From contig NZ_CP073745.1 of the NCBI RefSeq assembly GCF_024397975.1, positions 737,501 to 801,500 of the forward strand: a stretch of DNA of 64,000 nt. Direction: 5' to 3'. The notes under the pieces are model-generated. The model worked only from the letters and a program-made list of their open reading frames with translations. It was not told where the DNA came from and searched no databases. The position numbers and the translations under genes were made by a program. Positions 53,792 through 61,171 of this stretch are shown one piece after another (the stretch's first letter is position 1; each line of letters starts with the position of its first letter). The stretch comes from Bacterioplanoides sp. SCSIO 12839. Its GTDB lineage: Bacteria; Pseudomonadota; Gammaproteobacteria; Pseudomonadales; Oceanobacteraceae.

Positions 53792-55561
53792 ATGACGTAT
53801 CAGGCGCCACTGCGCGATATGCAATTCGTATTGTATGAAGTTTTGAAAGGGGACGAGATTCTGCCGTCTCTGCCGGGTTTTGAAGATGCGACTCGCGAGA
53901 TCATGGATGCCATGCTGACGGAGGGTGCTAAGCTGGCTGAAAATGTCATGGCCCCTCTGAATACCTCGGGTGACCGTGAAGGCTGCCAATACGACCCTGA
54001 AACCAAAAGTGTGACGACACCAACGGGTTTTAAAGAGGCGTACAAGCAGTTTGCTGAAAACGGCTGGACAGCGTTGTCCTCACCGGTGGAATACGGTGGT
54101 CAGGGTCTGCCTCACACACTGAACACACTGGCAGAAGAGATGGTGTGTTCGGCTAACCTGTCATTAGGTATGTATCCGGGCCTGACTCATGGCGCTATTA
54201 ATGCACTCACCAGTTACGGTTCGGATGAGCTGAAAAACAAGTTTCTGCCTCAGCTGATCAGCGGTGAGTGGACTGGCACTATGTGTCTGACCGAGCCTCA
54301 CTGTGGTACCGACCTGGGTCTGATCCGTACCAAGGCTGAGCCTCAGGCTGACGGTTCTTACGCTATTTCCGGTACTAAGATCTGGATCACCGGCGGTGAG
54401 CATGACCTGGCGGATAACATTGTTCATCTGGTGCTGGCAAAACTGCCGGATGCACCGGGTGGCTCAAAAGGTATTTCGCTGTTCCTGGTGCCGAAGTTCC
54501 TGGATGACGGAAGTCGTAACCCGGCTTTCTGTGGTGGTCTGGAACACAAAATGGGTATTAAAGGTTCGGCTACCTGTGTGATGAACTTTGAAGAAGCTAA
54601 AGGCTGGCTCATCGGTGAACCACACAAAGGCTTACAGGCCATGTTCGTCATGATGAACAGCGCTCGCCTGATGGTTGGTTTACAGGGTTTAGGCGTGGCA
54701 GAAGCGGCTTATCAGACCTCGCTGGGGTTTGCTAAAGATCGTCGTCAAAGCCGTTCTTTGTCGGGTCCACAAGAACCGGATCAGGCGGCTGATTGCATCA
54801 TTGTGCATCCGGATGTGCGTCGCATGCTGTTACGTCAGAAAGCCACCATTGAAGGCGGCCGTGCTCTGGCTTATTTCACGGCGATGCAGCTGGATATTTC
54901 CAACCACGGTGAAACACCAGAAGCACGTGAACACGCCGATGATATGGTTCAGTTATTAACCCCTGTGGTGAAAGCGTTCCTGACTGATGAAGGCTTCTTC
55001 TGTGCCAATGATGGCCTGCAGTTGATGGGTGGTAATGGTTTCACTCAGGACTGGCCGGTTGAGCAATATGTGCGTGATGCCCGTATCACCCGTATCTATG
55101 AAGGTACCAATGGTATTCAGGCGTTGGATCTGGTGGGTCGTAAACTGGGTATGGCAGGTGGCCGTCCACTGAAGCGTTTCTTTGCTATGTTAGAAAGCTA
55201 CGCCAAAGAAAACGAAGATGCGCCGCATGTAGGTGAGCTGAAAGCGTCGATGGCTAAGCTGCAGAAAGCCACCATGTGGCTAATGCAAAACGGCATGGTC
55301 GACCGTGAACAGGCTGGTTCTGCGGCGACGCCATACTTGCGTTTGATGGCTTTAACGGCGTTAGCCTATTTCTGGAGCAAAATGGCTCTGGTGGCGCGTC
55401 AGCAGCTGGATGCTGGCAGTACCGAAACCGATTTCTATCAGGCAAAACTGCACAGTGCTGAGTTTTATATGGCGAAAATTCTGCCACAAACCAGCAGCCT
55501 GCTGACCGAAATCGAAGCCGGTAAAGACAGCCTGATGGCGATGACATTAGAACAGTTCTGA
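53792..55561 (+). CDS. Acyl-CoA dehydrogenase with C-terminal extension
   Basis: FAD enzyme of 589 residues making trans-2-enoyl-CoA from acyl-CoA, or acting on 3-methylthiopropionyl-CoA as in DmdC relatives. MTYQAPLRDMQFVLYEVL is the typical start of the long, about 600-residue group. FAD/substrate motifs are MCLTEPHCGTDLGLIRTKA near residue 164 and KIWITGGEHDLADNIVHLVL; the C-terminal part has DARITRIYEGTNGIQALDLV near 428 with the catalytic-region Glu, followed by the extra C-terminal domain. It is preceded by a duplicated ribosome-binding segment. Chain-length specificity cannot be read from sequence. Confidence 0.9.
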   Translation: MTYQAPLRDMQFVLYEVLKGDEILPSLPGFEDATREIMDAMLTEGAKLAENVMAPLNTSGDREGCQYDPETKSVTTPTGFKEAYKQFAENGWTALSSPVEYGGQGLPHTLNTLAEEMVCSANLSLGMYPGLTHGAINALTSYGSDELKNKFLPQLISGEWTGTMCLTEPHCGTDLGLIRTKAEPQADGSYAISGTKIWITGGEHDLADNIVHLVLAKLPDAPGGSKGISLFLVPKFLDDGSRNPAFCGGLEHKMGIKGSATCVMNFEEAKGWLIGEPHKGLQAMFVMMNSARLMVGLQGLGVAEAAYQTSLGFAKDRRQSRSLSGPQEPDQAADCIIVHPDVRRMLLRQKATIEGGRALAYFTAMQLDISNHGETPEAREHADDMVQLLTPVVKAFLTDEGFFCANDGLQLMGGNGFTQDWPVEQYVRDARITRIYEGTNGIQALDLVGRKLGMAGGRPLKRFFAMLESYAKENEDAPHVGELKASMAKLQKATMWLMQNGMVDREQAGSAATPYLRLMALTALAYFWSKMALVARQQLDAGSTETDFYQAKLHSAEFYMAKILPQTSSLLTEIEAGKDSLMAMTLEQF

Positions 55562-55605
55562 TAAAAGCACAGTTCTGATTGATACGCAGCTCTACACGAG
55601 TTGCC

Positions 55606-55708
55606 GAACGCGACACACTTTTTCAACGGTGCGCAAAAAGCCACATCCCTGTGATCTTTGCGCACAGCAATCGTCCTGATTGCTACTCTGAAAAAATGTG
55701 TCGCGTTC
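55606..55708. other. Three-way-junction inverted repeat
   Basis: A 103-base element between two rightward genes folds almost completely. The outer arms are GAACGCGACACACTTTTTC (55606-55624) and GAAAAAATGTGTCGCGTTC (55690-55708), 18 of 19 bases paired. Inside are hairpin 1 (55629-55665: GTGCGCAAA with TTTGCGCAC, extended by CACA/TGTG around TCCC) and hairpin 2 (AGCAATC 55666-55672 with GATTGCT 55678-55684). It could be a structured RNA, a terminator or a small non-autonomous mobile element. Confidence 0.7.
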
Positions 55709-55756
55709 TTTATACGACCGTTTCCATTCCCGTTTAAAAGATTGCAGGAGAAGCGC

Positions 55757-56671
55757 ATGAGTAAACGCATATTAATCACCGGTGGCAGTGGTTTTATTGG
55801 CAGTCGTTTGATCGACGATTGGCTGAAAGCGGGTCATCAGGTTGTGGTGTTTACCCGTCGTCCTTCACGCGTGATTGAGCGTTTTAACGGTCATGTCCGT
55901 GCCGTCGACAGTCTCGCCCAGTTAAATGAATCATTTGACTGGCTGGTGAATCTTGCCGGGGAAGGCATTGCTGATAAGCGCTGGAGTGATGCACGCAAAG
56001 ATATGTTGCGTCAGTCACGGGTTGATCTGACCCGCGATCTATTACAGTGGGCCAAGCGTTCGCAACAATCGTTTGAACTGGTGTTATCCGGTTCTGCGGT
56101 TGGCTATTACGGCAGTTTCACTCATGACGCCCAGCAGGGCAGTAGCCTGACGGAAAATAACGATCATGGTGAGGGTTTTGCCGCTCACTTATGTCGTGAC
56201 TGGGAGACTATTGCTCAGGAGTTTTCGACACTGAGCCAGCGTTGTGTTTGGTTACGTACAGGCATTGTGTTGGGTCCTGGCGGCGGCATGCTGAAACGTT
56301 TGTGGCTTCCTTTCTCGTTTGGCCTTGGTGGTGTTATTGGTTCTGGGGAGCAGGTCTTGTCGTGGATTGATCTTGAGGACTACGCGCGGGCAATACAGCA
56401 TATCTGTGAATCGGGCCTGCAGGGTGCGGTTAATATGACGGCGCCTAAGGCGGTGACTAACCGTGAATTTACCCGGGTATTGGCAGCTGAACTGAAACGA
56501 CCCGCTCTGTTTCCTATGCACGAATGGGTAGCCAAAATGTTATTTGGCGAGATGTCTGAATTGTTGTTAGAAGGGCAGCGAGTGCAACCACAGCAGCTGT
56601 TAAAGAGCGGCTTTCAGTATAAATTTGTCAGTATTGAGCAATCTCTGAAACGAATTCATCATGAGTGGTAA
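55757..56671 (+). CDS. TIGR01777 family epimerase/reductase (YfcH-like)
   Basis: Extended SDR-type NAD(P)-binding protein of 304 residues. The cofactor motif is SKRILITGGSGFIGSRLIDD at the start; WLVNLAGEGIADKRWSDARK near residue 64, SGSAVGYYGS near 115 and LRTGIVLGPGGGMLKRLWLP near 172 are characteristic of the TIGR01777 family. C-terminal GQRVQPQQLLKSGFQYKF matches the DUF1731 end. The ATG at 55757 follows GGAG; the frame stays open upstream through the inverted-repeat element. Members commonly accompany photolyase and lipid clusters, but the substrate is unknown. Confidence 0.88.
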   Translation: MSKRILITGGSGFIGSRLIDDWLKAGHQVVVFTRRPSRVIERFNGHVRAVDSLAQLNESFDWLVNLAGEGIADKRWSDARKDMLRQSRVDLTRDLLQWAKRSQQSFELVLSGSAVGYYGSFTHDAQQGSSLTENNDHGEGFAAHLCRDWETIAQEFSTLSQRCVWLRTGIVLGPGGGMLKRLWLPFSFGLGGVIGSGEQVLSWIDLEDYARAIQHICESGLQGAVNMTAPKAVTNREFTRVLAAELKRPALFPMHEWVAKMLFGEMSELLLEGQRVQPQQLLKSGFQYKFVSIEQSLKRIHHEW

Positions 56672-57858: not shown

Positions 57859-59421
57859 TTAAAAAAGAGAAAGCTGCTGTGTATCCGTGGCTTTTTTGTT
57901 AGTCGTTCGCGATACTTTTCTGGTCGGCGTTCGTTTTCGCGACCCGTGTTTTTTACCAATTTTCTCAGCGTGTGAATAAAAGTCGCTTTGGCGTACGGTT
58001 TTAATCGCTTGTTTGGCTTGTCGGCTGGCTTGTGAAAAATCAACCGGAGGGATTGCATAGTCTTGTGACTGATATTGAGTTTTTAATGCGTCAGGCATTA
58101 ACCAGGGCTGGTGAATCCAGCTATTGGGCACATATTTTAATTCCGGAATCCATTGGCGAATAAAATGCCCGTGTGGGTCTTGTTTCTGCGCCTGCAGGGT
58201 TGGGTTATACATACGGGGAATATTGATGCCGGTTGTGCCAGACTGCATTTGTACCTGTGGGTAATGAATGCCGGGCTCATAATCGACAAATAAACGCGCC
58301 AGTACAGGGGCGGTTGTCTGCCAGGGGAGCCACAGTGTATAGCTGGCAATCGACACTAACATGGCGCGCATGCGGAAATTGATCCAGCCGTGGTGCTGCA
58401 AATAACGCATGCAGGCATCCACCAGTGGCCAGCCAGTTTTTCCCTGCTGCCAGGCTGACAACCACTGCGGATGATAATTCTGCCGTATCTGATTGTAAGC
58501 CGGGTGTAGGTTTTGCCATTCCATCTCTGGCTCGTCTTCCAGCTTCTGAATAAAATGACAGTGCCACCATAAACGGCTTTCAAACGCTTTCAGGCTGTTA
58601 TTCCAATGTGTTTTTTTATCCGGATGCTGGCGAAAATACTGCCGGGCTGCCATCAGAATCTGATACGTTTCTTTCATGCTGATACAGCCGTAAGCCAGAT
58701 AGGGGCTCAGTCGCGAGCAGGCATTTTGTGCCGTGATTGGTGAGCTGATGGACGAACGATAAAACTCGCCGCGCTGCCTTAAAAAGCTGTTTAATATGGC
58801 GAATGCCTGCTGGCGTCCGCCGGGTTGTTTGCCCGGACAAGGGGTTTGGTCGTTAACCCGGTTTGAGAGTTGGGCTAAGTCATTGACATCGGTTACTGCT
58901 TCTACACCTGTCATACCTTGTAAATCGTGTGTTTGCCACGGCTGTTTTTGCCACTGAATAGTGGTCACGTCAGTTAAATCTGAGTGAATAAATTGTTGCC
59001 AGTTTTTTGCCCAATGGTCGCGGTTTGGGTTGGGGCGAAACACTCCGAATTGTGAGTATTCCTGCCAGTGAATCTGGTGTTGCTGACACCAGTGTTTCAC
59101 CGCTATATCACGCTGAAACGTCCAATAATTACCGGTTTCTTCATGGCTGTGTAAACAGAAGCTGCCAAAACGTTGTTGTATCTGCGTTAAAAACGCCGCA
59201 ACGTCACCCACTGCAATCACTAGTTGCTGTTGCAGCTGCTGATTTAAATCCTCTAATGATTCTTTAATAAACAGCCACTGACGCAAGCTGGTATCGGATT
59301 GTTGCCAGTATCCTGGTTCAAAACAATAAAAGGCAATCACAGGCCCTTGTTTGGCGGCTTGTGCTAACGCCTGATGATCTGCGGCGCGTAAATCACGCTT
59401 AAACCAAACCAGTTGCAACAT
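57859..59421 (-). CDS. Divergent photolyase/cryptochrome family protein
   Basis: FAD-binding protein of 520 residues of the photolyase superfamily. It begins LQLVWFKRDLRAADHQALAQ (antenna-domain start) and has SPYLAYGCISMKETYQILMA near residue 244. Key positions differ from class I enzymes: the MHNR motif is replaced in GWINFRMRAMLVSIASYTLW, and the usual W-SA-TG segment by QVQMQSGTTGINIPRMYNPT. These variants define a separate subgroup often annotated only as FAD-binding domain protein. Repair activity is uncertain and a photoreceptor role is possible. It is the last gene of a four-gene operon, 14 bases after cryptochrome-DASH, and ends in a basic tail. Confidence 0.82.
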   Translation of the reverse strand: MLQLVWFKRDLRAADHQALAQAAKQGPVIAFYCFEPGYWQQSDTSLRQWLFIKESLEDLNQQLQQQLVIAVGDVAAFLTQIQQRFGSFCLHSHEETGNYWTFQRDIAVKHWCQQHQIHWQEYSQFGVFRPNPNRDHWAKNWQQFIHSDLTDVTTIQWQKQPWQTHDLQGMTGVEAVTDVNDLAQLSNRVNDQTPCPGKQPGGRQQAFAILNSFLRQRGEFYRSSISSPITAQNACSRLSPYLAYGCISMKETYQILMAARQYFRQHPDKKTHWNNSLKAFESRLWWHCHFIQKLEDEPEMEWQNLHPAYNQIRQNYHPQWLSAWQQGKTGWPLVDACMRYLQHHGWINFRMRAMLVSIASYTLWLPWQTTAPVLARLFVDYEPGIHYPQVQMQSGTTGINIPRMYNPTLQAQKQDPHGHFIRQWIPELKYVPNSWIHQPWLMPDALKTQYQSQDYAIPPVDFSQASRQAKQAIKTVRQSDFYSHAEKIGKKHGSRKRTPTRKVSRTTNKKATDTQQLSLF

Positions 59422-59435
59422 CGCTGGAACAAACC

Positions 59436-60968
59436 TTAACTAATAGCTACTGGCATGACGGGTGCTGGATAATGCGCCAGAGTTTGTTGTCCACAGCTGT
59501 GCGCCTGTACTTGTGCTAAGTCCTGGCCGCTGAGTTCTGGTAACCACTGGTGAATATGGTGCAATTGTGGGTCATATTGCTGCAGTTGTTTATTCATAGA
59601 AAACCAGCGCCCTTGTGCCTGACCACCAGGTGTTTTTTGAGCGGAATCCGGATGATGTTGCGGATCATTGCCAACCCCGGCTAAGTAAGCCCAGTTTCCC
59701 CAGTTAATGGCGACATCAAAATCAATCAGATGCTGTTCAAAAAATTGTGCACCCAGACGCCAGTCCAGCTGCAGTTCATGAATAAAATAACTGGCCAGAT
59801 TCTGGCGCATGCGATTAGAACAATAACCACTGTGAATCAGTTCTTTTAATCCGGCGTCAATCATAGGAACCCCCGTTGTGGCATTATTCCAGGCCTGCCA
59901 ATGCTGTGGGTTGATGGGTGCCGGTTGAAAATGATTGTGCTGTGCCAAGCCAGAGTAACGAAAATATTCGCGACCGTGAATGCGCATACTCCAGTGAAAA
60001 TATTCACGCCACAACAATTCAAAATACAGCCACTGGGAATGTTCATTGGCTTGTAATTCATGCTCAAAATAACGTATTTCCTGCAGAACACGTTTGGCCG
60101 ATAAACAACCCCAGGCCAGGTAGGCGCTGAAAAAGGAACTGAAATTTTGCCCTGTCAGTTGATTGCGTGTTGTTTTATAACGATTAAGGCCATCGTATTG
60201 CCAGATATACGCCGATAGTCGGGCCAGGCCGTTATCTTCACCTCCCGGTAAATTAAATCGTGATGATGGCAGGTGATCGTTTTGTCCGGAAAAATCCGTT
60301 GGCCAAGGGACAGATGGATAACGTTGACTGCTTCTGTTCTGTAAAGCATGACCTTGTAAGTCATGATCCTGAAGATCATAGTCATCCACCGTGAGTGCTA
60401 CCGGCGGATTTGCCTTAATTAAATCAGCATTCAGGTGCTTTTCTACACGGCGGCGAAAGCCACTGAAACTGTCTGGCCATTGCCCGGCGGTTAACGATAA
60501 ACCGGCATCCTGCAACTGCGCTTCACTGAATAACGTCTGGTTGTTATAGGTGGTTAAGTCGGTGCCCTGTTGGCGGATTGCGTTGAGCCAATAGTTTTCC
60601 TCCGGAGCTTGCGCCTGTTGGGTGAAAACCTGTTGCAGCCCTTGTTGTTGCCATTGTGCAAAAAGTGAAACCGGGTCGCCATAAACCATCTGCAACTGAA
60701 TATTCTGACGATACAGCTGTCTTTGCAGATCAATTAAACTGGCACGTAAGAAACGTGCTTTGGGTTTGCTGATGCGTACCAGGCCTGATGTATTCAAATA
60801 CGATTCGGGATAAGAAAACGGTGTGCTGGCGTCTGCATCCAGCCAGAATTCCGGGACAATAAAAACCACACTGATCGGCAATCCGGATTGGTTTGCCAAC
60901 TCAAATGCCGGGTTGTCATGCAGGCGTAAATCGTTACGCAGCCAGATAATGTTAAAGTCGTTATTCAT
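59436..60968 (-). CDS. Cryptochrome-DASH
   Basis: Flavoprotein of 510 residues of the DASH group, which repairs dimers mainly in single-stranded DNA and may sense blue light. DASH-specific features are GLARLSAYIWQYDGLNRYKT (in place of the class I GEAxA region), LLWREYFHWSMRIHG, GVPMIDAGLKELIHSGYCSN, RMRQNLASYFIHELQLDWRL and INWGNWAYLAGVGNDPQHHP. The ATG at 60968 overlaps the DUF2256 stop (ATGA); a TTG one codon upstream is less likely. Several Leu-Gln-rich loops near residue 200 (LQDHDLQGHALQ) look like a local expansion. Confidence 0.9.
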   Translation of the reverse strand: MNNDFNIIWLRNDLRLHDNPAFELANQSGLPISVVFIVPEFWLDADASTPFSYPESYLNTSGLVRISKPKARFLRASLIDLQRQLYRQNIQLQMVYGDPVSLFAQWQQQGLQQVFTQQAQAPEENYWLNAIRQQGTDLTTYNNQTLFSEAQLQDAGLSLTAGQWPDSFSGFRRRVEKHLNADLIKANPPVALTVDDYDLQDHDLQGHALQNRSSQRYPSVPWPTDFSGQNDHLPSSRFNLPGGEDNGLARLSAYIWQYDGLNRYKTTRNQLTGQNFSSFFSAYLAWGCLSAKRVLQEIRYFEHELQANEHSQWLYFELLWREYFHWSMRIHGREYFRYSGLAQHNHFQPAPINPQHWQAWNNATTGVPMIDAGLKELIHSGYCSNRMRQNLASYFIHELQLDWRLGAQFFEQHLIDFDVAINWGNWAYLAGVGNDPQHHPDSAQKTPGGQAQGRWFSMNKQLQQYDPQLHHIHQWLPELSGQDLAQVQAHSCGQQTLAHYPAPVMPVAIS

Positions 60969-61171
60969 CAAAATTCATCTTCGACCTGTGCCGCAGCACA
61001 TAGATTTTGAGCGGCCTTGTGTTCGTGTTTTTTCTTTTTACTGAGTGCACGACAGGCATCGCTGCAATATTTAACGTCTTGCCAACAACGCTGCCATTTC
61101 TTACGCCAGGCAAATGGGCGCTGGCAGTGGTGGCAGGTTTTTTCAGGTAAATTCAGTTTTTTATGAGCCAT
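60968..61171 (-). CDS. DUF2256 zinc-finger-like protein
   Basis: A 67-residue basic protein. KTCHHCQRPFAWRKKWQRCW and KYCSDACRALSKKKKHEHKA carry the C-x2-C ... C-x3-C pattern of DUF2256, probably binding one zinc ion. The family occurs almost always beside cryptochrome and photolyase genes, as here between the FeS-type photolyase and cryptochrome-DASH. Its stop overlaps the cryptochrome start by four bases, suggesting coupled translation. The function is unknown; nucleic acid binding is a guess from its basic charge. Confidence 0.85.
   Translation of the reverse strand: MAHKKLNLPEKTCHHCQRPFAWRKKWQRCWQDVKYCSDACRALSKKKKHEHKAAQNLCAAAQVEDEF

Follow-up and report, generated by a model that had tools for sequence, protein, structure and literature searches.

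The closest described relative of the element analysed here is TwoAYGGAY (RF01731), listed by Weinberg et al. 2010 as a candidate RNA (PMC2864571). Gardner & Eldai proposed from loop evidence that this RNA binds CsrA, and its external stem is described as 'not well conserved' (PMC4333381). No test of TwoAYGGAY function since 2010 was found in the literature, and no description of a high-copy dispersed TwoAYGGAY element in its open-access part. While the RNA kind and its proposed CsrA binding are already known, what is new here is an outer stem of ~22 bp that is unrelated between copies yet common to two species at the same locus. The family shares with TwoAYGGAY an outer stem around two hairpins, of which the second has the longer stem, with loops resembling AYGGAY, and the same trailing CGG(n)GC. 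However, it is shorter, its hairpin-1 loop is usually AGGAY (one base fewer), it reaches ~87 copies in one genome with a locus-private 22-bp outer stem, and the copy studied here lies outside the Rfam model. Compared with AYGGAY, the architecture of two hairpins within an outer stem is present and the loops are broader: ANGGAY or AGGAY in the family, AGGAC and AGGGAT in the copy studied.

The sponge RNAs of CsrA/RsmA (CsrB/C, RsmX/Y/Z) likewise carry hairpin loops with GGA that match CANGGANG and are paired in a way that suits a CsrA dimer; however, they are single dedicated sRNA genes with promoter and terminator, whereas the present family consists of dozens of two-site elements without a recognisable promoter. 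REP/BIME sequences with their RAYT transposase are similarly intergenic, dispersed, palindromic and often found as inverted pairs, but the genome studied here lacks Y1_Tnp, and a three-way junction with covarying stems takes the place of a conserved-sequence palindrome. ERIC, RU-1 and other bacterial MITEs resemble the family as structured intergenic repeats of ~100-130 bp with no coding capacity; in contrast to their conserved terminal inverted repeats, the terminal repeats here differ in every copy.

The element at 55606-55708 and its family

The window, i.e., the whole 64,000-nucleotide stretch of Bacterioplanoides sp. SCSIO 12839 DNA that was analysed, carries the element at 55606-55708, between an acyl-CoA-dehydrogenase-like ORF (53792-55561, plus strand) and a NAD-dependent-epimerase-like ORF (ATG at ~55757, plus strand), both named from their translations and not by database search. 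Further along, the minus strand of 57859-60971 holds two neighbouring ORFs of 520 and 511 aa, photolyase/cryptochrome-like by a guess from translation only. The segment folds into the ordered three-way junction that had been claimed for it: the MFE is -49.4 kcal/mol as plus-strand RNA (z -9.2) and -37 for the minus-strand DNA fold (z -10.0), and in both cases 0 of 200 shuffles equalled it. The outer arms pair as described but are 20 bases long (55606-55625 and 55689-55708), not 19; both enclosed hairpins, said to be perfect or near-perfect, are present, but the second has an internal loop. The unpaired junction bases number 3 + 0 + 4. The outer stem has one A.C mismatch on the plus strand, which is a G.U pair on the minus strand, so that the latter is without mismatch. 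Because comparison among copies shows the minus strand to be the meaningful one, the parts are listed on it, 5' to 3':

55606..55708, minus (GGA strand): whole element, a diverged member of the 87-copy family (fold z -9.2/-10.0; covariance model R1)
55689..55708, minus: outer stem 5' arm, GAACGCGACACATTTTTTCA on the minus strand, distal part private to the window copy (fold)
55666..55684 (19 nt), minus: hairpin 1, AGCAATC-AGGAC-GATTGCT, with a CsrA-type GGA loop (sequence, family loops)
55629..55665 (37 nt), minus: stem-loop 2, with outer helix GTGCGCAAA/TTTGCGCAC, internal loop and inner hairpin CAC-AGGGAT-GTG (sequence, fold)
55645..55650, minus: hairpin 2 loop AGGGAT; CACAGGGATGTG matches the RsmE consensus A/U-CANGGANG-U/A as given in PMC6849547
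55606..55625, minus: outer stem 3' arm, TGAAAAAGTGTGTCGCGTTC on the minus strand (fold)

The original prediction had proposed looking for further copies. A DNA search of the same genome returned three partial ones, which have only the inner loops and short stems in common and each of which has a different, well paired outer stem. The pattern GCAACRTCCTGTTGC gave 40 matches in the genome (0 for the reversed control). A covariance model (R1) and an alignment (A1) were made from 29 copies, and R1 found 87 copies in the 3.9-Mb genome and 37 in one congener (G001); a few other genera yielded one or two. The architecture also holds in members from more distant genera (G003, G041, G053), whose stem sequences are unrelated. 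Named relatives identified through the neighbouring gene (Oceanobacter, Bacterioplanes, Thalassolituus and similar) place the host among the Oceanospirillales-type gammaproteobacteria; R1 had no match in the SDR-gene neighbourhoods of eight such relatives, and a plasmid search with the window locus gave no match. The window copy itself matches R1 at 55611-55703 on the minus strand (66.9 bits, E 8.5e-17).

The Rfam search that had been suggested gave a split answer: the window is without a match, whereas sister copies match TwoAYGGAY. At the gathering threshold the whole window matched nothing in Rfam, and a permissive search over 24 kb missed TwoAYGGAY, which surfaced only when a short stretch was used; one sister copy then aligned to RF01731 end to end (31.5 bits, E 0.0019). 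Run against this genome, RF01731 identified at least 14 places at E<=0.001, most of those listed being over the gathering threshold of 43 bits (best 52.5). It was found in 37 of the 143 genomes searched, often in many copies, the counts being lower bounds as at most 18 candidates were scored per genome. RF01731 had no match in 55560-55757 at E<=10; the window copy is a diverged member, joined to the family only through R1 (66.9 bits).

Copies are intergenic, usually 10-60 bp from gene ends, with neighbours taken from ORF calls only. Their orientation relative to flanking genes is random (34 in the same direction as both, 31 opposite to both), so that about one third would be antisense to both neighbours. 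Inverted pairs ~20-80 bp apart, convergent or divergent, are frequent in the genome (e.g., 826401/826521, 2241965/2242078, 2603829/2603989 and 3715005/3715126; also 1021718/1021890, 1330409/1330535 and 1909349/1909467, all on G000:C1), and RF01731 matches in other genera show similar inverted pairing.

Covariation, strand polarity and GGA loops

In A1, which comes from plain MAFFT and was not fitted to the structure, covariation was 0.506 versus 0.174 when shuffled and <=0.167 for slid partners, with two-sided changes in 23 of 30 pairs; hairpin 1 is near-invariant there, its motif having been the basis on which most copies were picked. With 105 copies from several genera, covariation rose to 0.722 versus 0.184 shuffled, two-sided changes occurred in 29 of 30 pairs and all helices covaried, in an alignment that was made to the model and therefore leans to structure. 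A lack of conserved pairing in relatives, which the original prediction had named as counting against it, is not what we found: pairing is strongly conserved.

The two strands of the outer stem are not equivalent. A script found the arms by a scoring scheme of its own that treats G.U and A.C alike; read on the GGA strand, the stems contain 167 G.U versus 25 A.C (~7:1). G.U was in excess in 69 copies and A.C in 3 (sign test, p 2.6e-17), and the G.U:A.C counts were similar whether cores lay along the neighbouring genes (64:6) or opposed them (63:12). By stem position the counts were 99:8 at 6-17 and 25:14 from 18 outward; a recurrent G.U at position 5 is part of the total excess and is left out of the 6-17 count. 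The excess indicates that selection acts on the GGA strand by itself (minus in the window), as RNA or as single-stranded DNA.

Nearly all of the 105 copies carry AGGAT/AGGAC or ANGGAT in hairpin 1 and ANGGAT/ANGGAC in hairpin 2. The loop-closing pair is C-G in 99 of 105 copies for hairpin 1 and 101 of 105 for hairpin 2, and the pairs beneath vary freely; in the window copy the hairpin 1 loop AGGAC, at 55673-55677, is also closed by C-G. By these counts the loops with their closing pair fit, in paired sites, the context of CANGGANG, the Rsm consensus of Schubert et al. as quoted in PMC6849547. The genome has one csrA gene. The RsmY and RsmZ models gave nothing over cut-off; an RsmY match at 1824205 (24.7 bits, below cut-off) proved to be the ordinary terminator that follows a coding gene. 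Several congener copies have lost GGA from one loop but kept their stems, as if decaying (e.g., C1:396126, C3:276324 and C7:48327).

The most likely reading, to which we give a probability of roughly 60%, is that the GGA strand is transcribed and that the resulting RNA presents its two loops next to each other to a CsrA dimer. The window element would belong to a family of structured RNAs of the TwoAYGGAY type, scattered over the genome: transcription of the GGA strand (minus in the window) would let the ~22-bp outer stem hold up the two (A)NGGA-loop hairpins together, and the paired loops would naturally suit bidentate binding by one CsrA/RsmA dimer. The many copies would then serve as CsrA-binding sites, whether as decoys or by locally stabilising the RNAs in which they lie or marking them for processing, in a family that also spreads, cores reappearing at new places with new arms. 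Structure, covariation, strand polarity, loop signature, copy number, homology and the csrA gene are what the analysis observed; transcription, CsrA binding and a regulatory effect are what we infer. If dozens of two-site decoys are scattered in this way, they could set the level of free CsrA; ~87 copies in one genome give unusual statistical power, with strand polarity, covariation and the constraint on the loops pointing to CsrA.

Several points speak against a CsrA-binding RNA: the random gene orientation, the blindness of RF01731 to the window copy, the loss of GGA in many congener copies, which implies that not all copies are under selection, and a G.U excess that would suit a single-stranded DNA hairpin as well. 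It also counts against this reading that, across copies, neither promoter-like enrichment 5' of the GGA strand nor a terminator tail was found (the 8 nt that follow the stem hold a mean of 2.8 T on one strand and 2.7 on the other); promoter and terminator readings were both rejected.

The original prediction had offered three readings, a structured RNA, a protein site on extruded DNA and a small mobile element, which taken together are partly supported. The first is the best supported, by covariation, the strand-specific G.U excess, the CsrA-type loops and the TwoAYGGAY homology of sister copies. The second is possible, as the strand asymmetry fits single-stranded DNA too. The third agrees with the behaviour of the family (87 scattered copies in both orientations, congener sites without the element, cores common to unrelated stems), but no mobilising enzyme was found.

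Private outer stems around shared cores

Measured outward from the junction-adjoining TTTTC/GAAAA, the stems end sharply at ~20-24 bp, with perfect 24-25-bp stems at some copies. Between copies, distal arms are dissimilar at random level, with identities of 0.50 when cores are >90% identical and 0.47 when they are <60%; whatever the core identity, the terminal inverted repeats are thus not conserved among copies, unlike those of a MITE. Orthology with the one congener compared was defined by flanking DNA similarity. Where locus and orientation agree between the two species, most pairs of copies are mutual best or near-best core matches (identity mostly 0.8-0.94), with arms at ~0.55-0.94. Arms at shared loci thus diverge only somewhat more than cores, which does not support the idea that arms simply mutate fast and implies that a new copy gets new arms or that cores are replaced between fixed arms.

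At 10 of 26 copies shared in orthologous spacers, core orientation is opposite in the two species. The flipped cores have paralogue-level identity (0.61-0.75). At four of these loci (2971055, 3708227, 2420034 and 2035113) the arms nevertheless resemble each other (0.61-0.75, versus a paralogue 95th percentile of 0.61); some of the rest may have arisen by separate insertion. In the congener, two well-supported sites lack the element (3805701 and 2424366), and neither arm is present there, although the spacers are too diverged to read insertion junctions or to decide whether arms are copies of the target flank. In two copies (G000:C1:3174257-3174394 and 3489011-3489144) a different hairpin element is nested in the GGA loop of hairpin 1 or hairpin 2, which suggests insertion into hairpin loops. 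In another genome, G010:C1:466366-467998 (L236) and other copies have variable outer stems between conserved inner and outer sequence, an arrangement with conserved sequence on both sides of the stem that is unlike that of the window's genome.

To our knowledge, private outer stems of fixed length around recycled cores are unlike any product of transposition. They raise a concrete mechanistic question, to which a mobile CsrA-binding RNA cassette is a possible rather than a probable answer: each site would make or capture its own pair of ~22-bp inverted arms, selection on the GGA strand would then preserve their pairing, and a ~65-nt core would move between such arms, pointing either way, by copying or exchange. 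If so, insertion would leave near-perfect inverted repeats that have a fixed length and yet are specific to the locus, and the genome would have a way to scatter decoys for a global regulator.

Alternatives to the proposed CsrA-binding RNA

The alternative that survives best, though we consider it doubtful, is a non-autonomous mobile element whose functional form is the GGA strand as a single-stranded DNA hairpin recognised by an enzyme, the GGA loops being protein contacts; it could work in a REP/IS200-like manner, or its core could insert into, or be exchanged within, palindromes. Selection on a single-stranded DNA fold accounts for G.T tolerance and for random orientation, and such an element fits the 87 intergenic copies scattered in either orientation, the close inverted pairs, the element-free congener sites 3805701 and 2424366, the unrelated arms around near-identical cores, the opposite core orientation at 10 shared loci and the hairpins nested in the loops of two copies. 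However, Y1_Tnp (PF01797) had 0 matches in the genome, whereas control genomes gave matches, which excludes REP/RAYT and IS200/IS605; no convincing target-site duplication and no partner gene were found, and the loops bear the signature of RNA sites for CsrA.

Much less probable is that replication template switching (quasi-palindrome correction) mainly shapes the arms and the orientation of the core, RNA function being unneeded. At a hairpin the polymerase would use one arm as template for the other and invert the core, as the perfect 24-25-bp stems and the opposite cores within recognisably common arms at 2971055, 3708227, 2420034 and 2035113 would suggest. However, this process predicts G.U equal to A.C, and the observed 167:25 counts against it as sole cause; it leaves the invariant GGA loops, the C-G closing pairs and the cores common to several sites unexplained, and the flipped cores, at paralogue-level identity, have changed more than a simple flip predicts.

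A bidirectional terminator, or an RNase III or mRNA-stabilising intergenic hairpin with the ~22-bp outer stem as its functional part, is the least credible, for although copies lie in intergenic regions usually 10-60 bp from gene ends and the stem length is sharply ~20-24 bp, close to the two helical turns that RNase III prefers, there is no T-tail enrichment, the window copy has no T-tail, the conserved loops go unexplained and strand polarity is independent of gene direction. The GC stem followed by a T-run of an intrinsic terminator is seen neither in the family nor in the window copy's own outer stem, in agreement with the original remark that the element is unlike a usual terminator and has no strong T run.

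Related repeats were also encountered elsewhere. In G003, contigs C26, C27, C28, C40, C41 and C51 (L183-L185) contain GC-rich intergenic repeats with the same double-GGA junction, in units of ~270-340 bp that are in places tandem; 7-bp tandem repeats (CGTCGGA) adjoin some units and produce spurious long ORFs. A second, smaller element type, with GAGCCTACAGGGAYGTATTYACGGCGTG and a GGA hairpin and matching the model weakly, is present at L146:1554-1634 and L153:1354-1434.
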